A stretch of 64,000 nt of DNA from assembly GCF_900142545.1 (NCBI RefSeq), contig NZ_FRBF01000003.1, positions 62,001 through 126,000 on the forward strand. The letters are read 5' to 3'. A model generated the notes under the pieces. The model was not told where the DNA came from. It made no database searches and was given only the letters and a program-made list of their open reading frames with translations. Below, one piece after another: positions 2,138 to 26,187 of the stretch (position 1 is the first letter of the stretch; every line of letters starts with the position of its first letter). The position numbers were made by a program, and so were the translations under genes. The stretch comes from Fibrobacter sp. UWT2 (GTDB lineage: Bacteria > Fibrobacterota > Fibrobacteria > Fibrobacterales > Fibrobacteraceae).

Positions 2138-2171
2138 TGCGACTCTATTTGTCGCATACACCTCCTATATT
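2138..2171 (+). promoter_or_regulatory. Island element A: dyad plus -10 box
   Basis: A perfect inverted repeat TGCGAC (2138-2143) / GTCGCA (2151-2156) with a 7-nt spacer is followed after 9 nt by TATATT (2166-2171). The same arrangement recurs before other island genes. Caveat: GAGTCG/CGACTC (2128-2145) can also form a hairpin just after the dgt gene, so part of the sequence may serve as a terminator. The next gene downstream is the small one at 2244. Confidence 0.6.
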
Positions 2172-2243: not shown

Positions 2244-2408
2244 ATGACGCTCGAAGAAAAAGTAAAGGAACTGTATAACGAACTGAAGCCCAAGTGCCAA
2301 GCCGAAGGCCTGAACTTGAATTGGGAAATCCATAAAGCCTTAAGGCGATTCCGCAAGGAACATCCCGATCTGGACGACCAGTGGGCTAGAGAGGCTGAGG
2401 GGCTGTAA
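2244..2408 (+). CDS. Small protein of unknown function (54 aa)
   Basis: A short open frame starts at ATG 2244 behind an AAAGGAG ribosome site and encodes 54 residues (MTLEEKVKELYNELKPK...), charged and probably helical, with no cysteine pattern or membrane segment. I do not recognise it. It lies downstream of element A and of a second promoter-like TTGACA at 2185-2190. Its 3' end runs into a decayed winged-helix gene end in another frame, so it may itself be what is left of a longer gene. Confidence 0.5.
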   Translation: MTLEEKVKELYNELKPKCQAEGLNLNWEIHKALRRFRKEHPDLDDQWAREAEGL

Positions 2409-2626: not shown

Positions 2627-2660
2627 TGCGACTGTATTTGTCGTATGAGTGTCGTATATT
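2627..2660 (+). promoter_or_regulatory. Island element B: dyad plus -10 box
   Basis: TGCGAC (2627-2632), 7-nt spacer TGTATTT, GTCGTA (2640-2645), then 9 nt and TATATT (2655-2660). The start codon of the DnaB-like gene is only 20 nt further, with AAAAAAGGAG between, so a transcript starting about 7 nt after the -10 box would have a very short leader containing just the ribosome site. Same spacing as elements A, C, D and G. Confidence 0.7.
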
Positions 2661-2679: not shown

Positions 2680-4032
2680 ATGACACATGAAAAAAGTACA
2701 GATGGTTTAGGTGCTATGGCCGCAGCAGAAATGGCCAAGGCTTTCCGCTACTACAATTACGTGCGGGAGTTTTATGGTTACCTTTGCGATTCGCTGGATT
2801 TGGTCTTTGAAGACGACTGTAATGAATTCGACCCGGCGTATGCTCCGGCTGAGAAGGAGTTTCCGCCTACCGACGGAATAGATGAAAATTCTACCGCTAG
2901 GGCGCTTGCGCTTGACAAAATGGCTCGGGCTATTCGCGCCTATGAAACAATGCAGACAATCGTTGCGGTTTTTGACGAAAAGAGCGTTGAGAATGCAGCG
3001 AAAAATCGCGGAATGATGCAGGATTCCCACAAGTTCGCACTTACAAGTATCGCGGAATGGTTCCCGATGCCAAGTATCTGGCGGGAATTTGACGAATCAG
3101 CGCAAAAATGGCTTGACAAATATTCTGGCGATGCTCAAAGTGCTGTGTCGCTGATGGAGCCGCTTTCACTTGAATCTACAATTCACAAGATTTTCGCGGA
3201 GCAGAAGGAATGCCTTGAAAAATTTTTGCCGCAAAAAATTGAGGAACTAAAAAAGTTGCAGACTGAAATGGACTCTTCATACAAAGGTAAAGCGGATTGG
3301 TCAAGTCAACTTCGTCGAGGAGAATTGACAATTCTTGCGGCGCGATCGGGAGTTGGAATGAAAACGTTTGCATTGAACGTTGCAGAGAATGTGGCGTTGG
3401 ATGACGGCAAGGGTGTCGTTTATTTCGATCTGAATAATAGCGGTGCGCAACGCAGCGAGCAACTCCTTTGCCAGCGTGCTAATGTGGACTATTGCAAAAT
3501 TGATGAGGATACCCTCGATAAAACCGAGATGAAAATGCTCATGACGGCGGTGGGTGAAATCATACATTCGCATTTACGAATTGAAGACGCTACTGATATG
3601 AGTCTTACTGAACTTGCGCGAAAAGCAAGGCTTTACAAGCAGCTTAAATCACTAGATGTTCTGATTATCGATTACTTGCAGCTACTGAAGGTTCAATCGA
3701 ACACGAATAGGGATGAGTCTCTAAAGAGGGCGGCTTGGACGCTGAAAAATCTTGCCGTGGAATTGCATATTTCTATTCTGCTCCTCTACCCGCTTGGCAG
3801 AGAAACGTCTGCTGAACAGGAACGGCCCCAGTTGTCTGACTTTATCGAAATTCCGGGCGTTACGCAAGAAGCCGATGCCGTTTGGATTCTTGACCGTGCC
3901 TTTACGCGCACCCACCGCGAAGAAGATAGAGAAAAAGCGGAACTCTCCATCGTCAAATCCGGTGACAACTCCGAGAAAAACATTCCCTTGCGCTTTACGC
4001 GCAAGAAAGGGTTTGCTTTGGCTGAAGCATGA
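2680..4032 (+). CDS. DnaB-like RecA-fold ATPase with altered Walker A
   Basis: The C-terminal half (about residues 205-445 of 450) aligns by eye with the replicative DnaB helicase ATPase domain: LRRGELTILAAR, then SGVGMKTFALNVA, the Walker B LDVLIIDYLQLL (about 325-336), and GRETSAEQERPQLSDFIE...QEADAV, equivalent to the DnaB region after Walker B. The N-terminal 200 residues are not DnaB-like. Without gaps, the P-loop of DnaB (R-P-S-M-G-K-T) matches R-S-G-V-G-M-K here, so the catalytic Lys position holds Met, with Lys shifted one place. The protein may therefore bind rather than hydrolyse ATP, or use a shifted loop. It heads an operon with the SLOG gene (27-nt gap) and an unknown. It is not the housekeeping helicase by length and context. 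Start chosen at the ATG behind AAAAAAGGAG. Confidence 0.75.
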   Translation: MTHEKSTDGLGAMAAAEMAKAFRYYNYVREFYGYLCDSLDLVFEDDCNEFDPAYAPAEKEFPPTDGIDENSTARALALDKMARAIRAYETMQTIVAVFDEKSVENAAKNRGMMQDSHKFALTSIAEWFPMPSIWREFDESAQKWLDKYSGDAQSAVSLMEPLSLESTIHKIFAEQKECLEKFLPQKIEELKKLQTEMDSSYKGKADWSSQLRRGELTILAARSGVGMKTFALNVAENVALDDGKGVVYFDLNNSGAQRSEQLLCQRANVDYCKIDEDTLDKTEMKMLMTAVGEIIHSHLRIEDATDMSLTELARKARLYKQLKSLDVLIIDYLQLLKVQSNTNRDESLKRAAWTLKNLAVELHISILLLYPLGRETSAEQERPQLSDFIEIPGVTQEADAVWILDRAFTRTHREEDREKAELSIVKSGDNSEKNIPLRFTRKKGFALAEA

Positions 4033-11308: not shown

Positions 11309-11899
11309 CTAATTTCTTTTCTTCGTCGTTACAGGATATACGTGCCTGATTTCTTGCTTGTGCGGAGAGCGCCCTTTATACGTACTTTCGATTCGATATT
11401 CGTCAAACGAATTGCGTTGGGGCAAACATTCCATTTCGGCGAGTTCAAGTAGCGCTTTAAGCCAAGTGGTAGCGCAAGTGCACGTGATGCCGTTCATTTC
11501 CCAGCGAATTAAAGGTGGATGGGCGGCGTCGGGACTTGACCCATTTCCCCAACTTGCATCATGTTTCCAGTATGTGAGTTTGCCGATTTGTTCCGTTAGC
11601 GTTTCTGGGATTTCCTCAAATACGATATACCCTCCACCAAACCTGCCGGGATGCCCTGAACAGCAATAACGAGTCCTGCAGCCATCCATGCTGTTAAGCC
11701 GCATAATGGTATCCGCCAGCGCCGTATCAACGGCTCTGTAACCGTCCTTGTGCAGAAAATCAAGTTCCTGAACGTTTATCGGGGTTTCACTGATATAGCG
11801 ACGCTTTTCAAAGTTTACGAAAGTTATATCAGACTGTAACATGTTGCTGATTTTCGGACTCTCCATATCTCTAACGAATGTTATTTCTGTCTTTTTCAT
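11309..11899 (-). CDS. Protein of unknown function with GCRTRYCCSGHPG motif
   Basis: A 196-residue cytoplasmic protein. The central stretch GCRTRYCCSGHPGRFGGGY-IVFEE (about residues 73-96) combines a Cys-Cys-Ser-Gly-His motif with a Gly-rich turn; a similar Cys/Ser-Gly-His pattern occurs in small phage-associated proteins and faintly recalls the TYW3-type fold. A second Cys pair lies in GITCTCATTW. The N-terminus (MKKTEITFVRDMESPK) lacks a signal peptide. The upstream region at 11918-11951 holds an element related to the island dyad. I do not assign a function. Confidence 0.6.
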   Translation of the reverse strand: MKKTEITFVRDMESPKISNMLQSDITFVNFEKRRYISETPINVQELDFLHKDGYRAVDTALADTIMRLNSMDGCRTRYCCSGHPGRFGGGYIVFEEIPETLTEQIGKLTYWKHDASWGNGSSPDAAHPPLIRWEMNGITCTCATTWLKALLELAEMECLPQRNSFDEYRIESTYKGRSPHKQEIRHVYPVTTKKRN

Positions 11900-11917: not shown

Positions 11918-11951
11918 AAAATATATCGTTAAAGCGACAATTAGTGAAGCG
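11918..11951 (-). promoter_or_regulatory. Island element H (weaker copy, minus strand)
   Basis: Read on the minus strand, GTCGCT (11933-11938) is preceded by AATT and followed after 7 nt by TATATT (11920-11925) or after 9 nt by TATTTT. The left half-site (CGCTTC) is poor. It lies 20-50 nt before the start of the CCSGH gene at 11899, the same place as in better copies. Confidence 0.4.
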
Positions 11952-12012: not shown

Positions 12013-12219
12013 CTAAATATCCCACGGACCGTCCGAGATGTCTTCCGGATGGGCGTAGACATACGCGCTCGATGCAGGCTCAAGCTTGGCAAACATGGTG
12101 CAAAAATTCGTATCTCCCTCTTGGACAATGGCCTTCGCAATGCGGTGGACAATTTCTGCAAACGGGGCTTTGCCAGACATTTCGCCGTGAACCTTATCAA
12201 TCAGTTCTTTTTGCGTCAT
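12013..12219 (-). CDS. Small protein of unknown function (68 aa)
   Basis: A 68-residue protein (MTQKELIDKVHGEMSGKAPF...) starting at ATG 12219 behind TAGGAGTG, with element G upstream. The N-terminal half looks helical; the end is acidic (AHPEDISDGPWDI). No recognisable domain. The good ribosome site and upstream element make it more likely real than a chance frame. Confidence 0.55.
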   Translation of the reverse strand: MTQKELIDKVHGEMSGKAPFAEIVHRIAKAIVQEGDTNFCTMFAKLEPASSAYVYAHPEDISDGPWDI

Positions 12220-12251: not shown

Positions 12252-12285
12252 AAGATACCTTAGGTAAGCGACAAATGCTGACGGA
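12252..12285 (-). promoter_or_regulatory. Island element G (minus strand)
   Basis: On the minus strand TCCGTC (12280-12285), 7-nt spacer AGCATTT, GTCGCT (12267-12272), then exactly 9 nt and TATCTT (12252-12257). The start codon of the 68-aa gene is about 33 nt further on. Same geometry as elements A to D on the other strand, which argues against coincidence. Confidence 0.6.
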
Positions 12286-13009: not shown

Positions 13010-13296
13010 ATTTTTTTCCTTTGTTTAATTCTTCAATAAATATATACCCAAATTTAAAGATATGGCTAATTATAATGCTATAATTCTTCAAAACGGTTGA
13101 AAAAAAGAAATTCTATAAAATATAGCACTATAATTTACCAAAAATGCCTAAAATTTAGATTTTGGGATAAACGGGCCTTTCATATTCATTTTTTGTTGAA
13201 TCTCTAAAAATATCTTTTGTATATGACAGTATTTGTCGTATAATATGTGTATATTTACGATGATTTCGTTGACGAACTTTACAAAAAGAGGCTCTT
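13010..13296. other. A+T-rich divergent intergenic region
   Basis: About 290 bp between the minus-strand nuclease-like gene and the Fic gene. It is very A+T-rich, with two near-copies of GC(A)CTATAATT (around 13075 and 13125) and element C at the right end. No RNA gene or further open frame is supported. Confidence 0.5.
13222..13255 (+). promoter_or_regulatory. Island element C: dyad plus -10 box
   Basis: TATGAC (13222-13227), 7-nt spacer AGTATTT, GTCGTA (13235-13240), 9 nt, TATATT (13250-13255). It precedes the Fic gene start by 41 nt. The left half-site varies from TGCGAC but the right half and both spacings are kept. Confidence 0.7.
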
Positions 13297-13818
13297 ATGA
13301 ACAACGATACCCTTTCACTTGTTGACGTGGTGACGGATTACGCTTTTGCGCTGGATACGCTGGACGATTACGACCACCAGCGGCTTGTGCTGCGCAAGTC
13401 TGCCAATGCGGAAAAGTTCCATGCGACATACGAGAACGCGATGGCGGCGATTCAGGGGCTCAAGGAGAAGTTCGGCGGTAGCGAGTTGTTCGGGCATGAG
13501 AAGGACGAATCTTTCAAAAGCAGCATCGGACAGGTTTACCAGACTTTTGGCGGTGTGGAGCTTTACCCGAGTGTTGAGCAGAAGGCGGCAATGCTTCTCT
13601 ATCTCGTCACGAAAAATCATTCGTTCAGTGACGGCAACAAACGCATCGCGGCAACACTCTTCTTGTGGTTTCTGCTGAATAACGGCATCTTGTATAAGGA
13701 TGATGGATCCAAGCGTATTGCTGATGCTACGCTTGTGACCATGACGCTGATGATTGCAGAGAGTCGCCCCGAAGACATGGAAATGATGGTGAAGGTCGTG
13801 GTGAATTTGATGAGGTGA
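13297..13818 (+). CDS. RhuM-type Fic-domain protein lacking the N-terminal domain
   Basis: A 173-residue protein matching the C-terminal part of RhuM-family 'virulence' proteins. It carries YTFGGVELYPS-like and KNHSFSDGNKRIAATLF (about residues 106-122), the Fic motif H-x-F-x-D-G-N-K-R. The Lys in place of the second Gly is usual for the RhuM/Doc side of the family. Fic domains transfer AMP or phosphate onto proteins. RhuM proteins normally have about 150 extra N-terminal residues with a DNA-binding-like domain; here translation starts at the Fic part (MNNDTLSLVDVV), so the protein is either a natural solo Fic or a truncated gene. It is the first gene of an operon with a metallophosphoesterase and is preceded by element C. 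Confidence 0.8.
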   Translation: MNNDTLSLVDVVTDYAFALDTLDDYDHQRLVLRKSANAEKFHATYENAMAAIQGLKEKFGGSELFGHEKDESFKSSIGQVYQTFGGVELYPSVEQKAAMLLYLVTKNHSFSDGNKRIAATLFLWFLLNNGILYKDDGSKRIADATLVTMTLMIAESRPEDMEMMVKVVVNLMR

Positions 13819-13820
13819 TT

Positions 13821-14546
13821 ATGAGTAGCGAACGACAACTATGGATATGCGGGGACATTCACGGCGAATTGTCCGAGCTTGTTCGGAATTCGGTGAATCG
13901 TGGGATATCGTGCGCCGATATCCTGGTTGTCGGTGATTTTGGTGCGGGTTTCGGTCGCCCGAAATCGATGGATGTTGCCTACAGCAGGGTGTGTGCATCA
14001 CTTGAAAAAAATGACATTTGCATATACACGATTCGCGGCAATCATGATAATCCTGCGTTTTTTGATGGTTTGCATGATTTTGAATGGCTGCATTTTTTGT
14101 CGGACCACCGCATAATTGAACTTTGCGGCAAGAGAATTTACCCTATCGGTGGGGCTGTTTCTGCCGACATAGATTTTGTTGATCCTCTAATCCGCAAATC
14201 ACGGCGAATGATAAACGATACCCTAATCAGGATGGGCTCTTCTAAACGCATCTGGTGGCCTGATGAGGCTCCTGTGCCGATTGTTGAAAGTTTCCCCACT
14301 GCTGTAGATATTGTTGCGTCGCACGAGGCTCCGCTTTCGTTTGCACCGCCCCTTGTGCGGGCCGATTATGTGCGAGATGAATCTTGGATGAAGATTGTTG
14401 AATCGCGTAAATACTTGGATTATGTTTTGCAGATTGTCAAACCGACCTTGTGGTTTTACGGGCATTATCATTGCTGTTATGAGGGAAATTATCAAAAAAC
14501 ACATTATCGCTGCCTCGATATTGCCGAGATGGTGCAAGTTGTTTAA
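13821..14546 (+). CDS. Metallophosphoesterase (calcineurin-like)
   Basis: A 241-residue calcineurin-type phosphoesterase. All metal motifs are present: GDIHGE (about residue 11), VGDFGAGFG (about 40), RGNHDN (about 74), a His in ASHEAP, and YGHYHCC near the C-terminus. The ATG at 13821 with GAGG 5 nt upstream is preferred over the GTG at 13815, which overlaps the Fic stop. The 2-nt gap to the Fic gene means coupled expression. A phosphodiesterase paired with a Fic enzyme could remove the Fic modification or act as a co-effector on nucleotides; this is inference. Substrate unknown. Confidence 0.8.
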   Translation: MSSERQLWICGDIHGELSELVRNSVNRGISCADILVVGDFGAGFGRPKSMDVAYSRVCASLEKNDICIYTIRGNHDNPAFFDGLHDFEWLHFLSDHRIIELCGKRIYPIGGAVSADIDFVDPLIRKSRRMINDTLIRMGSSKRIWWPDEAPVPIVESFPTAVDIVASHEAPLSFAPPLVRADYVRDESWMKIVESRKYLDYVLQIVKPTLWFYGHYHCCYEGNYQKTHYRCLDIAEMVQVV

Positions 14547-14557
14547 AAATTATAGCA

Positions 14558-14591
14558 TGCGTCTGTAATTGTCGTGTTAGTGCGATATATT
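14558..14591 (+). promoter_or_regulatory. Island element D with leaderless start
   Basis: TGCGTC (14558-14563), 7-nt spacer TGTAATT, GTCGTG (14571-14576), 9 nt, TATATT (14586-14591). Only 6 nt separate the -10 box from the ATG at 14598, exactly where transcription would begin, so the mRNA is probably leaderless. This supports reading TATATT as a true -10 box. Confidence 0.7.
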
Positions 14592-14597
14592 TGTATT

Positions 14598-15332
14598 ATG
14601 CTTGACAAAAATTCATCATCTGAAATTACGCCGAAAAATCGTGAAGATTTGATTCGGCTGATTAGTGAAACAATCAAAAATGATGGTCCGAATTGTGACC
14701 TAAATTTTATCGATGTATCCTGTCTCGATGATATGAGAGGCGTATTTTCTTACCCAAATCAAATTTTTAACGGAGACATCTCGCGGTGGGATGTGTCTAA
14801 CGTGAAAAACATGTCTCATATGTTTTTCAACTCTCAATTTAATGGGGATGTTAGTCAATGGAATGTTTCCCATGTAACAGATATGTCGAGCTTGTTTGAA
14901 AGATCCGTTTTTAACGGTGATATAAGTCTTTGGAATGTATCGAATGTTGAAAACATGCATGCGATGTTTCTGAATTCTCAATTTACAGGAGATATAAGTC
15001 GATGGAATGTATCCCGTGTAACAAATATGTCTCACATGTTTTGGAAATCGCAATTCAATGGCGACATTAGTCAGTGGAATGTGTCGAATGTTGTTACAAT
15101 GTATGGGCTTTTCGCTTATTCGCAATTTAATGGTGATATAAGCCAATGGAAAACGTCCCGTGTGAGTGACATGTCCTTTATGTTTCTGTGTTCCCAATTC
15201 AACGGTAATATTAGTCAATGGAGTGTGTCGAGCGTAACAGATATGTCTTGGATGTTTTGGAATTCTCAATTCCGAGGCGATATATCTCGATGGAATGTTC
15301 TTGACGAAGCGAATTTAAAACGATTGAAATAA
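14598..15332 (+). CDS. DUF285/BspA-type repeat protein, cytoplasmic
   Basis: A 244-residue protein made of eight 24-residue repeats after a 50-residue head. Each repeat follows FNGDISQW, then NVSNVTNM, then S-MF and a closing NSQ, the DUF285 (Mycoplasma lipoprotein/BspA-like leucine-rich) pattern forming a solenoid for protein binding. Most relatives are surface proteins, but this one has no signal peptide or lipobox and starts MLDKNSSSE, so it should stay in the cytoplasm. The start at ATG 14598 is chosen because the GTG at 14574 would lie inside the dyad. There is no ribosome site; the transcript is probably leaderless. It sits between the Fic/phosphoesterase operon and the WYL regulator and shares their element, which suggests a role as binding or recognition scaffold in the island. 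Confidence 0.75.
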   Translation: MLDKNSSSEITPKNREDLIRLISETIKNDGPNCDLNFIDVSCLDDMRGVFSYPNQIFNGDISRWDVSNVKNMSHMFFNSQFNGDVSQWNVSHVTDMSSLFERSVFNGDISLWNVSNVENMHAMFLNSQFTGDISRWNVSRVTNMSHMFWKSQFNGDISQWNVSNVVTMYGLFAYSQFNGDISQWKTSRVSDMSFMFLCSQFNGNISQWSVSSVTDMSWMFWNSQFRGDISRWNVLDEANLKRLK

Positions 15333-15337
15333 AACTA

Positions 15338-15371
15338 TGCGACGCTATTTGTCATATTTTATATATATTTA
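15338..15371 (+). promoter_or_regulatory. Island element E before the WYL regulator
   Basis: TGCGAC (15338-15343), 7-nt spacer GCTATTT, GTCATA (15351-15356), followed by TATATT after 7 nt (15364-15369) or TATTTA after 9 nt. It lies 26-59 nt before the regulator's ATG and would allow autoregulation. Confidence 0.65.
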
Positions 15372-15396
15372 ATGGAAAATAAATCCAGGAGAAAAT

Positions 15397-16407
15397 ATGG
15401 CAGATATGACTCGCGGCGAAAGGACGGTGCAACTCTTTGCGAAGGTGATTTCGAACCCTGACAAGAAATTTACCGTTAGCGATTTGATGACTTCGTTTGA
15501 AATTCCAGAAGGCGAACGTCGCAATGTTCAGCGTGACATGAGGTTCCTTTCGGAAATGGATGGCGGTCGCTATATTGCTGTTGAAACGGTGGGGCGCACG
15601 GCTTACTATACCTCGGCACTCCGCAATGCAGAAAGACTCCTGTTCCCGAACTTTGAAAATACGATGCTGCATTTTGTGTTTCTGAAGCGCATCGCGAACA
15701 TTTATCCGGCCACTAGCGAAATTATCACGCAGCTTCTGGAGCGCATCGAAAAAAGTCTGCCGCACAGCGAACAAAAATCCCTTCAGTTACTCGGTGATGC
15801 GCTGAACACTAAAATTCTTTTTATGGGGGCGCCTCCGGATTTTGAAGAGGACTCCAGTGAAAAGATTCGTGTTATTTTGCAGGCCATTCACGAACATCGC
15901 AAAATCGATGTAACCTACAAGACGGAAGAAGGCGAAAGGCAATCGACCCGAATTCCGCTGATGATCATTATCTACGAAGACGACCTCTATGTAGGTTGCC
16001 AACGACAGGGTGGCGAGACCTATACGCTTAAGTTCCGCCGAATCAATGAAGTCAAGCTTTCGAAAGAAACGTTTGTCGAAGAACCGAAGATTCTTGATAA
16101 ACTCCGCAGACAGGTGGTGTCTGGAGCAGCGTTCATGGGGAGCCAGGAGCCGAAACTTGAAGATATAGAGATTGAGTTCAAGAGCCGGACAATCCTCTAT
16201 CTCGACGAAAATCCGTTTAACCGTTCTATGAAAATTGGCAAGCCGAAGAACGGAAAAGTCACGGTGAAACTGAAAGCTGAAGTAAACAAGCTCCTGTTCA
16301 ACTGGATTGTCTCTTTTACGGATGCCGCCCGCGTCATAAAGCCGCTCTCTTTGCGTAATAGTCTTAAGGACTATGCGAAATACCTGCTGGAAAATTACGG
16401 CGAATAA
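15397..16407 (+). CDS. WYL-domain transcriptional regulator
   Basis: A 336-residue protein with the standard three-part layout. The N-terminal winged helix (about residues 5-70: ERTVQLFAKVISNPDKKFTV...VQRDMRFLSE) is followed by a WYL domain (about 160-220: IHEHRKIDVTYKT..., PLMIIIYEDDLYVGCQRQGG, TYTLKFRRINEVKLS) and a WCX-type C-terminal extension. WYL domains bind nucleotide-like ligands or DNA, and WYL regulators such as BrxR and CapW repress defence operons by binding inverted repeats. The gene has element E upstream and AGGAG before its ATG. It is the only clear DNA-binding regulator in the island and therefore the best candidate for the protein that binds the repeated dyad. That link is inference. 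Confidence 0.85.
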   Translation: MADMTRGERTVQLFAKVISNPDKKFTVSDLMTSFEIPEGERRNVQRDMRFLSEMDGGRYIAVETVGRTAYYTSALRNAERLLFPNFENTMLHFVFLKRIANIYPATSEIITQLLERIEKSLPHSEQKSLQLLGDALNTKILFMGAPPDFEEDSSEKIRVILQAIHEHRKIDVTYKTEEGERQSTRIPLMIIIYEDDLYVGCQRQGGETYTLKFRRINEVKLSKETFVEEPKILDKLRRQVVSGAAFMGSQEPKLEDIEIEFKSRTILYLDENPFNRSMKIGKPKNGKVTVKLKAEVNKLLFNWIVSFTDAARVIKPLSLRNSLKDYAKYLLENYGE

Positions 16408-17259: not shown

Positions 17260-17390
17260 ATTGGTCTACCACCATTGAAGTTTGCGATAATTATGACTGA
17301 TTCTATTAATGATTTGATTGAATCAACTTGATGTTGCCTGAAAAACTTTAAAATTTCTTCATTTTAAATAGAATCTTTAAATGATTGATT

Positions 17391-17424
17391 AGGATTGTCA
17401 AAAAAATCTTTGACAATCCTTTTA
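17391..17424 (+). terminator. Strong hairpin terminator
   Basis: AGGATTGTCAAA (17391-17402) pairs perfectly with TTTGACAATCCT (17409-17420) around a 6-nt loop, followed by TTTTAC. It closes the GIY-YIG unit; the rest of the 275-bp gap to 17535 is A+T-rich with TATATT-like boxes near 17460. Confidence 0.75.
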
Positions 17425-17534
17425 CAAAATCTCCTTGTTTTTTGATAATATTTATGCGTATATTGGTATATATGCATAAATTGCGGCCGAAAATGGCCAA
17501 AATCGGCAAAAAACACGAAAAAAAGGAGATTTTT

Positions 17535-18269
17535 ATGTCCCAAATCGTTAGAGAAGGGTTCGCGCAGTTCTGCAAGCGCCAGAAGGCAGGCTTGCTCCTT
17601 GTCGGAGAAATCCAGAAACAAGAAAAGAAGGACCAGGAGGCACTCCTCGATGTCCAGGAAAAGCGGTTCGAACGCAAGTACAACCTGTTCTACGAGAACC
17701 TTGATCTCATCATGAGGCACAAGGATGAAATTATCGCGACGCCCCGCTACGCGAACATAGATGCCCATTACCTGCTGGAGGGCGGTGGTTGCTATGTCGG
17801 CAGGCTCTGCACCTCAAGGCAGATCAACATCGCGGGGACGCTTATCACGTTCAATCTCAAGCTGGGAACCTTGCTCAAAATTTGGGAAACAGGTCAGTTC
17901 CGCATCGCCTGCAGGTGCGGGGAGACGGCTGTTATTCGGCGCTTTGTCGGGTCTCCGCTTTCGGGCGGGTCGAACGCATCGGCGATATGCCCCAAGTGCA
18001 AGGCAGAAATCCATGTCAAGAATCGGAGCTTCGGCAAGTACTACTTTTTCGCGGCGGGAAAGCTGAACGAGGATATCGAAATGGTCGTGAAGAACCTTAT
18101 CGCCAAGTGGACCATTGCCGAAGTGGAATACCAGAAGAAGGTTGCCGAGGGCAATTGGCTAGATCCTAAAATTGCGAGTGATTTCAAGGGCGACGGTGAA
18201 GTCTGCAATCTCGAGACTCTGCTGCAGGACCTTTGGCAGAAGGAACTTGAAGAGGCAAGAAAGGCTTAA
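17535..18269 (+). CDS. Zinc-ribbon protein of unknown function, first of a tandem pair
   Basis: A 244-residue protein with a helical N-terminus (MSQIVREGFAQFCKRQKAGL..., charged coiled stretch to about residue 60), then RHKDEIIATPRYANIDAHYLLEGGG. A four-cysteine zinc ribbon follows, CRCG (about 126-129) and CPKC (about 151-154), separated by about 20 residues. The ATG at 17535 follows AAAAGGAG; an earlier frame start would run through the terminator and was rejected. It is homologous over its whole length to the next gene, 16 nt downstream. I do not recognise the family; it may be lineage-specific. Adjacent to recCBD but separated from it by a promoter. Confidence 0.7.
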   Translation: MSQIVREGFAQFCKRQKAGLLLVGEIQKQEKKDQEALLDVQEKRFERKYNLFYENLDLIMRHKDEIIATPRYANIDAHYLLEGGGCYVGRLCTSRQINIAGTLITFNLKLGTLLKIWETGQFRIACRCGETAVIRRFVGSPLSGGSNASAICPKCKAEIHVKNRSFGKYYFFAAGKLNEDIEMVVKNLIAKWTIAEVEYQKKVAEGNWLDPKIASDFKGDGEVCNLETLLQDLWQKELEEARKA

Positions 18270-18285
18270 AAACGGAGGCGTCATT

Positions 18286-18933
18286 ATGGCGGTAAAGATA
18301 CAGGAAGGCTTTGCGTTGTTCAGCAAGCGCATGGATGCGAAGGCGTACATCGAAAGCGAAGATGAATCCCTCGACAATATGGAATCGCAAAAGATTCTCG
18401 AAATCAAGAGGGAACGCGACGAACGCAAACGCAAGTTGCTGTTTGACAACCTCGACTTGATTTTGCGACACCGCGACGAAATCATGAAAACGCCGCGGTA
18501 TGCAAAGATCGATGCGCATTACGCGTTGCGTGGTGGCGGCGCCTATATTGGCCCGATTGCGATGCGGCGAAGATTCTGTGCCGCCGGGGTTTCGGTTACG
18601 GTGGGTATCACGCTGGGCTCGCTTCTCGAGATTTGGGGAACGGCAACGTACAAGGTGAATTGCAGTTGCGGCAATACCGCCTACATCCGCTCCTTCGGCG
18701 GCTCGCCGCTTACGGGGATGTCTGTTGCGGGGGCCGTTTGCCCGCATTGCAAGAACGAGATTCACGGAATCCGGAGCAGGCCCTTTGGCGATTATGTTCG
18801 GCAGGTGTTGAACGCTCTCGATCGCGAAAAGGCGGCGGTCTCGCAGGCGTTTACCTCGGGGGTATTCGGCAAGTTCAGCGAGCAGTGTAGCCTGGAAAAG
18901 ATGATTTCGGAACTGAAGTTGCGGGAGATTTGA
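18286..18933 (+). CDS. Zinc-ribbon protein of unknown function, second of a tandem pair
   Basis: A 215-residue paralogue of the preceding gene. Shared blocks include QEGFALFSKR, ENLDLI/DNLDLI-RHRDEIM-TPRYAKIDAHYALRGGG, LGSLLEIW, and the ribbon CSCG ... GSPLTG ... CPHC. It lacks about 30 residues at the C-terminus compared with its neighbour. ATG 18286 follows ACGGAGG. Conservation of the Cys pairs and of the GSPL-G loop between otherwise diverged copies shows that the ribbon is under selection. A duplicated pair may form a heteromer. Function unknown. Confidence 0.7.
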   Translation: MAVKIQEGFALFSKRMDAKAYIESEDESLDNMESQKILEIKRERDERKRKLLFDNLDLILRHRDEIMKTPRYAKIDAHYALRGGGAYIGPIAMRRRFCAAGVSVTVGITLGSLLEIWGTATYKVNCSCGNTAYIRSFGGSPLTGMSVAGAVCPHCKNEIHGIRSRPFGDYVRQVLNALDREKAAVSQAFTSGVFGKFSEQCSLEKMISELKLREI

Positions 18934-18958: not shown

Positions 18959-18996
18959 AGATATTAGAACAATAATTGAGTAACTATATTCTTACC

Positions 18997-21900
18997 ATGC
19001 TACACTTGAAATTTGCGCTGAATCTGGAACATCTCGCTGACGAGATGATTAAAGCAATCTCTAAAAAATGGAACGACCCGTTCAATGCGCCGGTCGTGAT
19101 ATTTCCGGACCCGAAACTAGAACAGTGGTTCCGCCTACGCTGGATGAAAACAAAGGGCGTACTCGCTAATCTGAACAAGAGCACCATTGACAGGTTCCTG
19201 TTTCAGATTCTTGTGGGTGACGATCGCAAATTGAAAAAGCTTTCGTCTGAGATGCTTGCGAATGTTATCATGGCGTATTTGTTGGGTAAAGACGAAAATG
19301 GCAAGCCCAATTATATGACCTTGGATCCCAAGGTTGCCGAGTATCTTACCAAGAAAGAAAAGGCGAATGGCGAAGAACGAGTTCTGGACGAAGTTCGGCT
19401 TTATGATTTTGCAAATAAATTGGCGGGACTTTTCCTAGAATACGAAACGAGCCGTCCTCAGGGCTTTCTGCAGGCAAAAGGAATTCTTGATTATTGGTCA
19501 GAGGATGTTCTAAGGAAATCTGGTGAACTGGATGATTTCTTTGTGAAAAAGACCTGGGACAAAGAAACCAAAATAGACAAAGATGTGCCGGTTGATAACG
19601 AATCATGGGAGAAAACCCTCTATTCCAAGATTTTCCATAATGTGAACGGAGATTCTCTACTGACGCGTGTTTTCGCAAAAGCAAATGGCGAATCAGAGGA
19701 AAATAAACAAATCAAGTACTTGACTTTGCCTTTCCTTTATAATGAGTGCCTTGATTCTGAAGGTAAACCTCAATTCAAATACAATTCTAAAGCGCCCGTC
19801 TTTATTTTGGGTCTGTCGGGCATGGGCCAGTTCTACCGAATTGTCCTACGTGAATTTGCAAAGCAACACGAAGTGTATGCCTACATCCAGAATCCGTGTA
19901 TGGAGTTCTGGGAAGATCTTGACGCGTCCGCCATTGTTCCCAAAATTGTAGAGACTCATGAAGATGACAAAATTACAGAAACGGAAGACACCCTTTCTGA
20001 AAACGAGAACAGTCTTCTTCGGTATTGGGGAAAGTCCGGCAGGGACAATATTAAGCTCTGGTGCCTTACGGATGATTATTCCTCATGCGATTTCACAAAA
20101 GATGAGCATTTAGAATTGCTTGACGAAAAACAGGAGTCGCCGAAAGACCTTTTTCATGCGGTTCAATATTTGGTCGCGAAAAGACAGAACGTATTCAAAG
20201 AGAAGCAGATTGAGGGAAATAAATTCAAGAAAAAAGAAGGGGACGAGTCTCTTACGGTAACAGCGGCCCCGAGTAAGCTGCGTGAAGTCGAAGCGTTGCA
20301 TTCTTCGATTTGCAAGTTGCTTTTGAATGGCGTTCATTCAAACGATATCTTGGTCGTGTCTCCAAACTTGCAGGAATATAGCCCGTTCATATATCAGATT
20401 TTTGATCAGGCCAAAAATGCGGCTGAAAATGGTGATGAAACGATTGTTCATATCCCTTATACGATCGTAGATTCCATTTCTAAGGATTCGCTCGTTGGCG
20501 CAGTCATAAAAAAGCTTTTCCAGGTTCGAAAGGAACATTCTGTTTCGCGAGCGGATTTTTTTGACATGGCTCGCAATCCTGTTGTTCAGGCGACTCGAGG
20601 CATTACTCCTGATATGGTGGCAATATGGGATACCTGGATTACGGACATGAACGTCTATCGTGATAGACCGAAACAAAAATTCGAGCCTTGGCAGTGGGCT
20701 GTAAAAAGGATGCTCTTGGCTCGTCTGACGACGAGGACGAAGGTAATTGACGATAAAGTCTATACGCCTTACGCGAATATGAACAGCACGGATGATTCCT
20801 TGCTGATGAAGTTTATCAGTACTGTTGAAGACCTTGAACGTTGGACGAATGCTTTTGAAGATGGAATCGCGGAAAGTGATTCGGAAACCTTGCTTGAGAT
20901 GCTTAATAGTTGGGTTAATATGAAGAATGTGCCCGATGACCTTGTCGGGGAACGTGCTGCGTATTTTGAAGTTTGTAAGGCACTCAATCGTCTGAAGTAC
21001 ATATTCTATGCAGGAACGACCGAAAAGATTCCGATGGAGATCGTCAGGGAAAGTATCCTTGAAGCAGCGACTGTTTCGGAATTTAGCTTCGGGAACCTTT
21101 TCGTGAATGGAATTTCGTTCATGAAGTTTGCGCCCAATAGAGTGATTCCGGTAAAGCATTTGTTCTTCCTGGGTGCTGATGTAGATCATTTCCCAAGTGA
21201 CGATTCGTTTAATACATTAGATTTGCGTAGGCAAGTTCGTCCGTGGCCGGGTGACGACACTGGTGTGAATCGCAATCGCTATGCCTTCTTATGTCAGCTG
21301 ATGTGTACGTCTGAGAGCTTCCATATCAGTTACCAGAATATGAACCTTGCCAAGGATAGCGAAATTTATCCGTCTCCGATTATTAACGACTTGAAGAATT
21401 TTGTTGCGGGTTTTGCCGAAAAGCAGAAAGATAAATTGACGGGCGAAGAATTGGAACCGCTGCATACCGAAAAGATTCCTCTTGACGAAACTCGCAGCAG
21501 GGATTGCTTGTTCACAAGACGTGGACGCAGATACATGGAGTCAATCGAATGTATTCGCACAAATGCATCTGAAACTCGCAAAACGCCATGCTGCAAGAGT
21601 TCTGGCGACTCTTCTGCCACTAAGTATCCAGATAAGGTTTCGATATCTCAGATGAAACAGTATCTGAATGATCCGTTCCAGTTCTACATAGGCCGAATGC
21701 TGCGTTTGGAAAAAATCGAAAACGATCCAACTGAAGAATATGTTGAACCGATTAGCTTGAGCAATTTGGACGAAACTGTATTCTTGAAACAAGCGGTGTA
21801 TATTGAAAAGGGACTGGACAAGGATTATGAAAGTGTAGACGTCTATTTTGATGGGCTTAAATCGCAAGGGAATATTCCTTCTGGAAAGTTCGGCGAAGGA

Positions 21901-22581
21901 ATGAGTGACACGATAAAAGCCCGTGCGGATGTGATAAAAGCTGAATTGGACCGCTTCTTCCCTGCCTGCGACTATACTTGTAAATCGGTTGAACTGAACG
22001 AATGCATTACTGACCCTGATGGGTCAAATTCTGACTCTAAGAGATTAGAATTTATGTTGCAGGGCAATATTCCGCTAGTCTTTTCGTCCGAAGAAAAATG
22101 CGCGATTGTAAATGTGAGCAATTCGGATAGTTTGGGCGTGTACAAGTACTTGGATTCTTATATTGGCGCCCTGGGTTTGATTGCTGCCGGTAAAGCAGAA
22201 TCTGTAGATTTGTTTATTGCAACAGGAACTTGTCAAGATCCGGAATCCTATAACGCAAATGTATGCAGCGTAAGCGTTCCCGCATCTGAGGCAAAGGAAA
22301 TTCTTTGCTGCATTTACAAGAAATCCTTTAAGGATCTTGATAATAAGATTTTGCCTATTTCGCTTCTCTGCTCTGATATAAAGAATTATGAAGAACTTAA
22401 GGCTAAACTGGCCGATGAACGTAGGGGACCGTGGGCGTATTTTGCTGGCAAGGATCTCTTTATCAATGAGCTGGAAAAGTACTCTGGGTATTCGAGCGAA
22501 GGCTTTGCTGACGAATGGGCTAAAGCCTGCGATAAACAAAAAGATTTATTGGGCGAATTAAAGAACAAGATTGAAGGGTGA
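18997..22581 (+). CDS. recC: Exodeoxyribonuclease V subunit gamma (RecC)
   Basis: A long (about 1194-residue) protein with RecC features. The start MLHLKFALNLEHLADEMI... resembles the RecC N-terminus, with FPDPKLEQWFRLRW corresponding to the conserved 'VPSPGMAQWLKL' segment. The inactive helicase-like domain contains VSPNLQEYSPFIYQIF, and VKHLFFLGADVDHFPS in the middle matches the family block before the nuclease-like C-terminal domain. RecC holds the complex together and recognises Chi. Start taken at ATG 18997; a TTG at 18976 is possible. recB follows after 6 nt and recD overlaps recB, so all three subunits are co-expressed. Confidence 0.85.
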   Translation: MLHLKFALNLEHLADEMIKAISKKWNDPFNAPVVIFPDPKLEQWFRLRWMKTKGVLANLNKSTIDRFLFQILVGDDRKLKKLSSEMLANVIMAYLLGKDENGKPNYMTLDPKVAEYLTKKEKANGEERVLDEVRLYDFANKLAGLFLEYETSRPQGFLQAKGILDYWSEDVLRKSGELDDFFVKKTWDKETKIDKDVPVDNESWEKTLYSKIFHNVNGDSLLTRVFAKANGESEENKQIKYLTLPFLYNECLDSEGKPQFKYNSKAPVFILGLSGMGQFYRIVLREFAKQHEVYAYIQNPCMEFWEDLDASAIVPKIVETHEDDKITETEDTLSENENSLLRYWGKSGRDNIKLWCLTDDYSSCDFTKDEHLELLDEKQESPKDLFHAVQYLVAKRQNVFKEKQIEGNKFKKKEGDESLTVTAAPSKLREVEALHSSICKLLLNGVHSNDILVVSPNLQEYSPFIYQIFDQAKNAAENGDETIVHIPYTIVDSISKDSLVGAVIKKLFQVRKEHSVSRADFFDMARNPVVQATRGITPDMVAIWDTWITDMNVYRDRPKQKFEPWQWAVKRMLLARLTTRTKVIDDKVYTPYANMNSTDDSLLMKFISTVEDLERWTNAFEDGIAESDSETLLEMLNSWVNMKNVPDDLVGERAAYFEVCKALNRLKYIFYAGTTEKIPMEIVRESILEAATVSEFSFGNLFVNGISFMKFAPNRVIPVKHLFFLGADVDHFPSDDSFNTLDLRRQVRPWPGDDTGVNRNRYAFLCQLMCTSESFHISYQNMNLAKDSEIYPSPIINDLKNFVAGFAEKQKDKLTGEELEPLHTEKIPLDETRSRDCLFTRRGRRYMESIECIRTNASETRKTPCCKSSGDSSATKYPDKVSISQMKQYLNDPFQFYIGRMLRLEKIENDPTEEYVEPISLSNLDETVFLKQAVYIEKGLDKDYESVDVYFDGLKSQGNIPSGKFGEGMSDTIKARADVIKAELDRFFPACDYTCKSVELNECITDPDGSNSDSKRLEFMLQGNIPLVFSSEEKCAIVNVSNSDSLGVYKYLDSYIGALGLIAAGKAESVDLFIATGTCQDPESYNANVCSVSVPASEAKEILCCIYKKSFKDLDNKILPISLLCSDIKNYEELKAKLADERRGPWAYFAGKDLFINELEKYSGYSSEGFADEWAKACDKQKDLLGELKNKIEG

Positions 22582-22587
22582 TAAAAA

Positions 22588-25500
22588 ATGAGCGATAAGA
22601 CTGTGTTGAAATCTTTTGATATTGAGAAATTTTCTCCGGAACAGGATCAGTATATTGAAGCTTCTGCTGGTACAGGAAAAACTTATACTATCCGAAAAAT
22701 TTCGGCTGAACTGGTCAGGAACAATATCCCCCTTTCTGAAGTCCTTTTTGTTACGTATACGGAAAAGGCGGCGGGCGAAATGCGTGACCGTATCCGTGAA
22801 GAAATGAATGAGTGTGTGGAAAAGGCTTCGCCGGCAGAAAAGCGCCTGTTTGAGCGTGCTTGCCAAGATGTTGACAAAGCCATGATTGGAACGATTCATT
22901 CGTTCTGCCGTAAGACCTTGCATGACTTTGCCTACGAGGCAAACGTCCCGTTTGATATGGAAAACGCCGATGATCAAGCCGCAGAAGCGGTTATCGACAG
23001 GTTGATTCGTGATGAATGGGAAAAAGACATATGCAGCTTGCCGAGAGAGACTGCTTTGCCTAAAGATGTTGAATATATCAAGATTATGTTGAAAAAGGCG
23101 TTGAAAGCGTACTCTCCAGAAAAAGAACCTGTTTTCCCGGCGACAAATGTTCAGGAATGGATAGATCACAATCCGACCGCAAAAAAACATTTTGATGTGT
23201 TGCAACAAAATTCGCGGGCAATATTTTCGGGAAACAAGGGTGGCGAAAAAACAGTTGAATTTCTGATAGGATCAATGCTCAAGAGCAAGGGGAAATTGGT
23301 CAACGGGAACAGTTTCGGCAGTCAGCTTGCATCCGTTAGCGCTGATTCTCCAGAAAAGCAAAAAGAGGTTACTGAAGCGCTGAAATATTTCTATCCCTTA
23401 AAAGTTACCTTGTTGGATTCGGACACTGCGAAACGACTTGGATTCCTGAATCGAAGAATGACGGAACTCTATGAACTTTGGCAGCAGGAAAAGGCTCGTC
23501 AAAAGGCGCAGTCTTTTGACGATATGATCTCGGCGGTGCGTGAGGCGGTTTGCCCGAATGGCAAGGCTCCTGAAACACCGACTTTCCTGTGCAAGAAAAT
23601 TCGCGACGCCTACAAGATTGCCATCATTGATGAATTCCAGGATACTAACGAATTCCAATGGAATATCTTTGAAACGGTGTTCTTGAATAGCGAAAAAAAT
23701 CATCTGATTGTCGTCGGTGACCCTAAGCAGTCCATTTATAGTTTTCAGGGTGCCGATTTGCAGGTCTATCGCAAGGCTACGAAAAGTATCACAAACGGAA
23801 GTAAGCTGGCGACCAATTTCCGTTCGTCAATCTCGATGATTAAGGCGTGTAATTCGATGTTCTCTGTTGGCGACGAATCGGGGTATCCGTTCTTGCCAAA
23901 GGGCGATTTTTCGGATTCTGAATATCCAAAAAATGTTGAAGATCAGCGTCAAAATGCTGTGTTCAATGGAAAGGAAACGAAACCGATTTGGATTTCGCCC
24001 ATTGTTCCCGAAAAGGGCTTTGCTCGCTTTGCTGTCCAGAAGATTATTGAATGTTGCAAGGAAACGGACGACAAAACTGCCTTGCAGGTGTTTGATCGAG
24101 GGAAAACGGAACCGCGAAACGTAAATTTCTCGGATTTTGTCATTCTCGGAAGAACAAGACCGGAAATGAACGAGATCAAGAAATGTCTTACGGCTGTCGG
24201 TATCCCCTTTGTGCTGTATAAGGATACATCGCTTTTCAATTCTCGCGAATGTGCAGAATGGATTTCCGTTTTAAGGGTGCTTGCGGCTCCAAATCTGTCT
24301 GGCTATAGCAGCAAATTGTTGAATAGTGTTTTCGTCTCGGATTTCTTTGGGATGGACTTGCTCAATTTGAGTGACGATCCCCAGAAGAATACGGATGAAA
24401 AAGTGCTCTCGCAAATAGCCTATTGGAGATTGTTGGCTTCAAAGAAACAGTGGACCGAGCTTCAGGAGCAGATTTACGAAGACACCTGTGTAGAACAAAA
24501 GCTGAGTAGTCCGTCAAGATTGCAAGATTTGATGAAACTTCGCCAAATTGGCAACTACATCTTTGGCTACCTGTATGAGAAAAAGGTGACGCTTCAACAA
24601 GCGATCAAGCATTTAGAAACATTGTCTAAGAACAATAAGGAGGCCAGTGACGAAGAAAGGAATCTTGTTGCGAAGGGAACGGATTTTAAGGCCGTGAGAT
24701 TGATGACTATTCATGCTTCGAAGGGCTTGGAATTTCCGGTTGTTATTTCTTGTGCGGGTTTCAAGGACGTGAATACTCACGCCGAGGGGCCGTTTGTTTT
24801 TTCTGCAGAGGAAAAGAACGACGGTGTCTCTCAAAAGTATGTTGGATTCGGCAAGGATGCCAAGAACAGCCGCCAAAGTGAAGAAGTTGTTGAATGGCAT
24901 CGCCTACTTTATGTAGACTATACGCGAGCATCGTCTCTCCTGATTTTGCCGCAATATGACGTGTGGTATGAATGCGCCCAAGAGAAAAATCCAATCACAA
25001 ATAGAAACGTTAACGTTTATGAAACCCGTTATGGCTTGAGAATGCAAAAGCTGAGACTCAATGAGGGGAAACCCATTATTGATGGCGGTTCCTCTTGGAC
25101 TTTCCTAGCTTATGCTCATGACAAACTTTGCGAAGAAAATGAATTCGCCGCGCTTTGCGAATGGGATGGCTCCTGGGATGTAGATGCTCTCAGAAAGGAA
25201 GTGGCTGCTGAACTGGCATTCTTTAACAAGGATGAAAAAAAGGATACCTCTGAGTTGCCGAGTGATGAGATTCTCAAGGCGATTCGTAAAACGCTCAAGG
25301 ACTCAAGCCTTTACCAACATTCGTATTCGTCTATTGACAAGAAATCTTCTGGTATTGATATCCAGTCGGCCGATGGCGATCGACAGAATCGTTCCGGCGA
25401 TGAACCCGACGACGAGTCTGTTTTTGAAGTTGCTGAAGATTCCGATTACCCGCGCGGAAATCTTTATGGCGAAGCCCTTCACCAGGTCTTTGAAGAACTT

Positions 25501-26187
25501 GATTTTGTGCGAATTGGTAGCATGTCTTTGGATGAAGCTCAAAAAGATGCGGAACTTCTTGATCTTATTACGAATAAGTTCTTGTCGCAGGGCCTGCCTA
25601 TTGGCAAACACCCCAATTGGATGACTAGGACTGTTGAAATTATTTGGAATACGATGAATGCATCGCTCCAAGAAATTCACGGAACAGAAAAGACGGGAAA
25701 AGTGTTCAACCTTAAGGAATTGGAATCTTCACAACGTCTTGCTGAAATGGAGTTCCGTCTCAAGGCGGGCGATGACGGGGATGAGGTCCTTAAGACTTTT
25801 ACGAAAGGCTTTATGGACTTGGTCTTTGTTCGTAAGGATGGCGATAAGGAATACTATTCCGTTTTGGACTGGAAATCAAATTTATTGAAGCAATACGATC
25901 CCGAGTCCAGTTTTGAGGCGGTAAAGGAACATTATTCCATTCAGATGGTTTTGTATTCCTACTGTCTCATTAAGTGGCTGTGTTCTATATGGGAAGAACC
26001 TTCGCCAGATAAAGTGTACAAGGAAAATTTTGGTGGCATCTACTATGTGTTTGCGCGTGGTTGCCAGAAAGAAAAGACGAATGGCGTTTATGCGCATACC
26101 TGGCCGTCTTTTAAGCAATTAGAAGACGCATATAAAGAAATTGAAGTTTTGATGCGTTCTCGTCGCAAGGTAGAGGTGAAAAAATGA
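22588..26187 (+). CDS. recB: Exodeoxyribonuclease V subunit beta (RecB)
   Basis: A 1199-residue UvrD-family 3'-5' helicase fused to a nuclease. Visible motifs are the Walker A SAGTGKT (about residues 26-32), TYTEKAAGEMRDRI (motif Ia), DEFQDTNEFQW (motif II, about 348), GDPKQSIYSFQGAD (motif III), VRLMTIHASKGLEFPVV (motif V) and YVDYTRASSLLILP (motif VI). The C-terminal RecB nuclease reads GNLYGEALHQVFEEL, then FMDLVFVRKDG and YSVLDWKSN, giving the H...D...D-x-K site. It unwinds and degrades double-strand ends, including phage DNA, and loads RecA after Chi. The last 4 nt overlap recD. Confidence 0.92.
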   Translation: MSDKTVLKSFDIEKFSPEQDQYIEASAGTGKTYTIRKISAELVRNNIPLSEVLFVTYTEKAAGEMRDRIREEMNECVEKASPAEKRLFERACQDVDKAMIGTIHSFCRKTLHDFAYEANVPFDMENADDQAAEAVIDRLIRDEWEKDICSLPRETALPKDVEYIKIMLKKALKAYSPEKEPVFPATNVQEWIDHNPTAKKHFDVLQQNSRAIFSGNKGGEKTVEFLIGSMLKSKGKLVNGNSFGSQLASVSADSPEKQKEVTEALKYFYPLKVTLLDSDTAKRLGFLNRRMTELYELWQQEKARQKAQSFDDMISAVREAVCPNGKAPETPTFLCKKIRDAYKIAIIDEFQDTNEFQWNIFETVFLNSEKNHLIVVGDPKQSIYSFQGADLQVYRKATKSITNGSKLATNFRSSISMIKACNSMFSVGDESGYPFLPKGDFSDSEYPKNVEDQRQNAVFNGKETKPIWISPIVPEKGFARFAVQKIIECCKETDDKTALQVFDRGKTEPRNVNFSDFVILGRTRPEMNEIKKCLTAVGIPFVLYKDTSLFNSRECAEWISVLRVLAAPNLSGYSSKLLNSVFVSDFFGMDLLNLSDDPQKNTDEKVLSQIAYWRLLASKKQWTELQEQIYEDTCVEQKLSSPSRLQDLMKLRQIGNYIFGYLYEKKVTLQQAIKHLETLSKNNKEASDEERNLVAKGTDFKAVRLMTIHASKGLEFPVVISCAGFKDVNTHAEGPFVFSAEEKNDGVSQKYVGFGKDAKNSRQSEEVVEWHRLLYVDYTRASSLLILPQYDVWYECAQEKNPITNRNVNVYETRYGLRMQKLRLNEGKPIIDGGSSWTFLAYAHDKLCEENEFAALCEWDGSWDVDALRKEVAAELAFFNKDEKKDTSELPSDEILKAIRKTLKDSSLYQHSYSSIDKKSSGIDIQSADGDRQNRSGDEPDDESVFEVAEDSDYPRGNLYGEALHQVFEELDFVRIGSMSLDEAQKDAELLDLITNKFLSQGLPIGKHPNWMTRTVEIIWNTMNASLQEIHGTEKTGKVFNLKELESSQRLAEMEFRLKAGDDGDEVLKTFTKGFMDLVFVRKDGDKEYYSVLDWKSNLLKQYDPESSFEAVKEHYSIQMVLYSYCLIKWLCSIWEEPSPDKVYKENFGGIYYVFARGCQKEKTNGVYAHTWPSFKQLEDAYKEIEVLMRSRRKVEVKK

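Follow-up and report, generated by a model that had tools for sequence, protein, structure and literature searches.

The window, by which we mean the whole 64-kb stretch of Fibrobacter DNA analysed here, carries a gene island with recC, recB, and a RecD-like gene (window 18976-28196) immediately downstream. The island contains the gene of a WYL regulator, and seven copies of a dyad with the core CGWC-N7-GTCR are spread over 13.2 kb (Table 1). The sequence-only reading had named the WYL protein as the only clear DNA-binding regulator of the island, with its own copy of the element before its start and with the same dyad marking seven units over 13 kb. These three claims were borne out. No other recognisable DNA-binding regulator was present among the Pfam-scanned island proteins, and the 19-bp dyad TGCGACGCTATTTGTCATA lies 40 bp ahead of the WYL ATG, a position that it also holds in other genomes of the clade.

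Table 1. Positions of the dyads and genes of the island in the window.
Feature	Position	Strand	Remarks
Dyad TGCGACTCTATTTGTCGCA	2138..2156	+	-10 TATATT at 2166-2171, exactly N11; PWM 37.1 bits
Small ORF, 54 aa, behind the first dyad	2244..2408	+	From translation; putatively coding
Dyad TGCGACTGTATTTGTCGTA	2627..2645	+	-10 TATATT at 2655-2660; PWM 32.2 bits
DnaB-C-like ATPase, marked	2680..4032	+	Pfam DnaB_C 4.9e-45
196-aa protein without known function, marked	11309..11899	-	
Dyad CGCTTCACTAATTGTCGCT	11933..11951 (gene sense 11951->11933)	-	-10 TATTTT (N11) or TATATT (N9); PWM 25.9 bits
Small ORF, 68 aa, behind the 12267 dyad	12013..12219	-	From translation; putatively coding
Dyad TCCGTCAGCATTTGTCGCT	12267..12285 (gene sense 12285->12267)	-	-10 TATCTT at 12257-12252; PWM 25.6 bits
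Dyad TATGACAGTATTTGTCGTA	13222..13240	+	-10 TATATT at 13250-13255; PWM 31.5 bits
Short Fic/Doc-type gene (HSFSDGNKR), marked	13297..13818	+	Pfam Fic 6.6e-12
Metallophosphoesterase	13815..14546	+	Pfam Metallophos; overlaps the Fic end; without own site
Dyad TGCGTCTGTAATTGTCGTG	14558..14576	+	-10 TATATT at 14586-14591; PWM 27.5 bits
DUF285 repeat protein	14598..15332	+	Pfam DUF285 1.3e-54
Dyad TGCGACGCTATTTGTCATA, WYL gene	15338..15356	+	PWM 23.0 bits, window rank 7
WYL regulator gene	15397..16407	+	336 aa; Pfam WYL and WCX; AF2 model
WYL regulator domains	residues of the 336-aa protein		wHTH 6-73, three-helix bundle 86-137, WYL 153-225, WCX 254-334

Both strands of the window were scored with a position weight matrix (PWM) of 40 columns built from 104 sites, all from other genomes. 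The seven dyads took ranks 1-7 at 23.0-37.1 bits. The only remaining scores above zero, 21.9 and 11.7 bits, were reverse readings of two of the seven, the former being the weaker minus-strand reading of TATGACAGTATTTGTCGTA, and 20 Markov-1 random windows scored 13.6 bits at most. The matrix sites were gathered with CGWC-N5-TTGTCR-N11-TANNTT, a pattern derived from this window; independence therefore holds for the flanking and spacer columns but not for those that the pattern dictated. The left-half CGWC columns, which are partly pattern-fixed, carried 1.9, 1.9, 1.1, and 1.9 bits, near the strength of the right half.

The seven copies are parts of a larger promoter element consisting of the dyad, 11 bp, and a TATATT-like -10. 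Across the loci of the genus, TANNTT lay exactly 11 bp past the right half in 112 of 152 dyads, with 0-7 at each of the other spacings; a sub-peak at N9 was present in the profile. For the whole of this genome our statements rest on pattern searches, in which TTGTCG...TATATT at a spacing of 2-26 gave 24 matches, half of them (12/24) at exactly N11. Two of these 12 (C4 and C5) were without a dyad, and the C4 match, which lies inside a terminator-like inverted repeat (AGACTCTCGA/TCGAGAGTCT), was discarded. Housekeeping promoters in the same DNA peaked at TTGNCA-N17-TATATT (16 matches) and TTGACA-N17 (19). The marked promoters matched TTGACA at spacings of 16-18 in 1-3 of six positions and have no -35 of their own. 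Placing TATATT at -12 to -7 puts the dyad at roughly -38 to -24, centred near -31, and it therefore covers the -35 region.

Whether a gene has the site depends on its family. Among the fetched loci, the site preceded 7 of 8 DnaB-like homologues (window copy counted), 13 of 18 Fic homologues, and all three homologue loci of the 196-aa protein, two of which coincide in one genome; some of the loci behind these three counts overlap. It also preceded 6 of 11 homologues of P4781. It was found at none of the homologues of the metallophosphoesterase (0/8), the 17385/18172 pair (0/11 in the fetched loci), AAA/DUF4143 (0/4 in the fetched loci, and none on the window gene), and RecB/RecC (0/4 in the fetched loci). 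The matrix scan gave no site for the GIY-YIG gene of the window, and the type IIG restriction-modification (R-M) gene, the clearest defence gene of the island, had neither a site in the window nor a homologue in the fetched loci. Over all loci, WYL genes formed the largest marked class (21 of 90 marked genes); the other classes were tandem AAA+ proteins of ~770 aa (17), which have IetA-like matches in PADLOC, Fic (9), DnaB-like (4), and PLD-like proteins (4), the last a putative assignment from the GSANLTG motif. The regulon is thus real, but it is not a set of classical defence genes, since the restriction enzyme falls outside it. The expectation that several defence modules would be released at once went too far, given that the type IIG R-M, AAA/DUF4143, and GIY-YIG genes are without a site.

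Several features of these genes and their surroundings were recorded as well. The marked Fic protein matches the PDC-S23 family over its C-terminal half only; Fic homologues of ~350 aa from other genomes (L244 and L245) are full-length proteins and are without the site. The start of the DUF285 gene was re-set to ATG 14598 because the -10 falls within the longer ORF. At this promoter (14558-14600), 6 bp separate the end of the -10 from the ATG, so that the transcript would be leaderless or translation would start further down. The gene contains tandem 72-bp (24-aa) repeats of 64-72% identity at window 14832-15298. Between the island and recC lie two adjacent related ORFs without known function (window 17385-18933), neither with a site. 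Of the other loci of the WYL clade, three contained a RecC homologue and only one a RecB homologue.

The WYL gene stands single, with no second WYL partner adjacent. Pfam assigned WYL to residues 156-220 (E 1.1e-6) and WCX to residues 255-328 (E 1.2e-6) of its product, and the wHTH was seen in the structure predicted by AlphaFold2 (mean pLDDT 75, pTM 0.47), in which helices 86-102, 104-120, and 123-137 separate it from the WYL domain. R42 and R46 of the recognition helix are invariant. The layout of winged helix, WYL, and C-terminal extension on which the repressor assignment had been based is thus present; it is not diagnostic of repressors, because the activators DriD and PafBC have the same layout. 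A PDB search with the single WYL sequence gave no match. Profile searches gave weak similarity to DriD (E 0.016-0.07, WCX region only) and also matched the BrxR structure 7qfz (E 0.22). When the AlphaFold2 model was searched with Foldseek, the top seven matches were DriD chains (1.6e-13 to 5.2e-11), followed by PafBC (1.4e-10), with BrxR (3.4e-6) and CapW (5.0e-6) far below DriD; whole-chain TM-scores were low (0.35), so that this order is a ranking, not proof, and does not establish orthology to DriD.

WYL homologues (E <= 1e-20) were present in 36 of 61 Fibrobacter genomes. The named relatives all belong to Fibrobacter or to Fibrobacteraceae/Fibrobacterales, mostly from rumen or gut, and the literature searched contained nothing on WYL regulators in Fibrobacter. 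The promoter pattern follows the WYL genes: 161 sites were found in the 36 genomes with a homologue versus 7 in the 25 without, and at least two sites in 35/36 versus 1/25 (Fisher p=1e-14, a value that overstates independence since the genomes are related). Site number correlated with WYL copy number across genomes (Spearman 0.92), and a reversed control pattern gave 4 matches. A dyad of at least 8/10 within 220 bp upstream was present for 46 of the 51 WYL genes whose upstream DNA was long enough, compared with 116 of 799 for the remaining genes, many of which are marked themselves.

By identity to the window protein, the homologues fall into groups A (73-94%), B (55-59%), and C (40-45%), with up to three paralogues per genome. 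Each clade has its own dyad subtype, namely ATgCGaCagTAtTTGTCGCAT for A, CaCGACATTATTTGTCGCAGT for B, and aCGACAtTaATTGTCGtg for C. When each genome was left out in turn, the subtype assigned the neighbouring WYL gene to its correct clade at 100 of 108 sites, and at 56 of 60 sites in the twelve multi-clade genomes, this one included; target genes that are orthologous and common within a clade may add to this match. Such a match is hard to explain by a common host regulator reading the dyad. Because sites and WYL genes share islands, co-occurrence alone could mean joint transfer, but this is less likely given that the subtype matches the WYL clade. Fic and AAA homologues in genomes without WYL gave no site above 15 bits (0/9), with one at 14.5. 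Taken together, co-occurrence and clade-matched subtypes suggest that the WYL protein very probably reads the dyad directly. Outside Fibrobacter, the matrix also picked out sites before WYL homologues of a different genus within the family (28.5 and 26.4 bits) and of a different family within the phylum (L298; 28.4 bits). The same scan gave no element for many WYL proteins at a greater distance within the phylum, so that the element is not a general feature of WYL proteins there.

For the window copy and those nearest to it, the WYL promoter TTGTCATATTTTATATATATTTA permits either TATATT at N9 or TATTTA at N11, so that autoregulation of the window WYL gene could be of either sign. WYL genes of clades B and C are mostly preceded by the standard N11 TATATT, which suggests positive feedback, unlike in DriD. 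In some clade C loci (WYL upstream regions L105, L106, and L110; observed for G017:C97, G047:C29, and G054:C35), two divergent promoters share a single dyad, each strand having its own -10 at N11.

Two further loci of the same genome carry the element. A clade B WYL homologue (L037:7488-8355, G000:C11) is broken after ~155 aa and is followed by a fragment resembling the specificity end of an R-M enzyme. The promoter element of this homologue is intact, as is another marked gene close by. A clade-B-like site, TATGTCATTATTTGTCGCA with N11 and TATATT, lies at L038:5783-5816 (G000:C14:48782-48815) before a 280-aa gene without known function. No WYL gene occurs within the 12 kb fetched around this site, and its neighbours, judged by eye, include DUF262-like and GIY-YIG-like genes.

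The sequence-only reading had cast the WYL protein as a BrxR/CapW-like repressor. In a model of this kind, a WYL dimer would block polymerase at the seven promoters until a ligand frees it on infection. Such a repressor would fit the domain order, the palindromic site in the promoter, the marking of its own gene, and the defence-like neighbours, and an operator over the -35 could occlude sigma; the Foldseek matches to BrxR and CapW are significant, albeit well below those to DriD. The position of the dyad argues against it. The 11-bp repeats of the BrxR boxes, with their 5-bp spacer, come after the -10 (PMC9122601), and the palindromes of CapW overlap it (PMC9122588), whereas the dyad here replaces the -35 at a fixed 11 bp from the -10, as with DriD and PafBC. 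Repression would not need the exact phasing seen in 112 of 152 sites, promoters without a -35 would hardly fire once derepressed, and no BREX or CBASS genes were found among the scanned window proteins. We consider this repressor model unlikely; the sequence by itself would also fit a repressor whose operator has taken the place of the -35.

A PafBC-type sigma adaptor, which would contact the right half TTGTCR alone and only together with RNA polymerase, is as improbable in our estimate. It would account for the right half and the -10, which form the PafBC-dependent promoter motif at identical spacing, but it would leave the left half incidental, although this half is kept nearly as strongly (in part because the pattern fixed it), implying two-sided contact; it would also lead one to look for a second WYL partner beside what is a single gene. 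Far less probable is that another regulator of the genus, for example of the SOS or Xre type, reads the dyad and that the WYL gene is merely a target. The standing of WYL as the largest marked class fits a target role too, but genomes of the genus without WYL have almost no site, their Fic/AAA homologues do not exceed 15 bits, and the site subtype tracks the WYL clade within one genome. Chance matches or a decaying repeat family without function, which the degeneracy of some of the seven left halves might recall, can be set aside, as a matrix from foreign genomes puts exactly these seven first, far above random, and the site recurs at homologous genes elsewhere but not at unmarked neighbours.

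Our reading accordingly moves from a repressor released by its ligand to an activator switched on by it: the WYL protein is likely to be of the DriD type and to act from dyads at the -35 position, with ssDNA as the leading candidate trigger. This reading is based on the fixed N11, the lack of a -35, the DriD/PafBC-like layout, and the first place of DriD in Foldseek, and on these grounds activation of the marked promoters by the WYL protein seems quite likely. The protein, probably as a homodimer, would bind (T/A)(G/A)CGWC-N7-GTCR(C/T)A, and the bound dyad would take the -35 position, with the TATATT-like -10 exactly 11 bp past the right half. The WYL pocket would accept a ligand, for which ssDNA from damaged, replicating, or phage DNA is, by analogy, the best candidate, with about an even chance of being the true one. 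The ligand-bound protein would then recruit housekeeping RNA polymerase to all marked promoters, and the output of the island would comprise Fic(-metallophosphoesterase), the DnaB-like ATPase, DUF285, small unknown genes, and probably WYL itself. More tentatively, and at somewhat less than even chances, Fibrobacter may possess a family of island-borne WYL activators, with up to three paralogues per genome and their own dyad subtypes, through which one damage or phage signal would, by a promoter code private to them, switch on several separately acquired units (short Fic, tandem AAA+, DnaB-like, gyrase-A-like, and small unknown proteins), the dyad, N11, and TAnnnT being common to WYL activators of three phyla.

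If this reading is true, CGWC-N5-TTGTCR-N11-TANNTT would be a sequence rule for finding WYL-activated promoters without experiments, the promoters of DriD and PafBC would be joined in one geometry with a third phylum added, and uncharacterised Fibrobacter island genes would become candidates for co-induced stress or defence functions. It would also correct the habit of naming as a repressor each WYL regulator that is found beside defence genes. Where one genome holds paralogues with different dyad subtypes, the operator specificity of WYL proteins is directly testable by site swaps.

Known WYL regulators resemble the Fibrobacter protein to different degrees. BrxR and CapW have in common with it the wHTH-WYL-C-terminal extension, a palindromic site, and a defence neighbourhood; the Fibrobacter dyad differs in its N7 spacing and in lying at about -38 to -24 instead of at or downstream of the -10, no BREX/CBASS operon was found among the scanned window proteins, and the structures are more distant. 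SiwR of Mycobacterium smegmatis is a homodimeric WYL activator that responds to genotoxic stress and uses a 19-bp imperfect palindrome upstream of the -10 (PMC10693628). The Fibrobacter protein likewise has a 19-bp site upstream of the -10, a likeness of size and place; SiwR, in contrast, controls one neighbouring operon. The view that WYL regulators are usually tied to a single operon is unsafe, as PafBC controls >150 genes (PMC10693628) and DriD several promoters (PMC12340889). DriD of Caulobacter crescentus is an ssDNA-activated WYL activator that contacts RNA polymerase, and its site, ATACGAC-N7-GTCGTAT, lies over a poor -35 at a constant distance to the -10 (PMC12340889). The Fibrobacter system is like it in its wHTH-three-helix-WYL-WCX order, the CGAC-N7-GTCG core, the dyad over a poor -35 at a constant -10 distance, and several dispersed targets, and DriD is its best Foldseek match. 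It belongs to another phylum, shows weak sequence similarity to DriD, and occurs as up to three paralogues per genome, each with an operator subtype of its own; its targets lie in islands and are Fic/AAA/DnaB-like, whereas those of DriD are didA/bapE/recJ/dnaG, and most Fibrobacter copies have the site at their own gene, whereas driD is not under DriD control. Mycobacterial PafBC acts by sigma adaptation with ssDNA as the trigger (PMC11804915). Its promoters, tTGTCRgtg-8-TannnT, equal TTGTCR-N11-TAnnnT (PMC5656591), and the Fibrobacter promoters have this same form without a -35. There is also similarity in WCX, and R42/R46 have the i/i+4 spacing of R44/R48 in the recognition helix of PafB (PMC6789036). 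PafBC has two WYL subunits, as a heterodimer or a fusion, on a non-palindromic site, unlike the one gene and two-sided dyad of Fibrobacter. Read as sequence, the Fibrobacter element combines the promoter signatures of DriD and PafBC.
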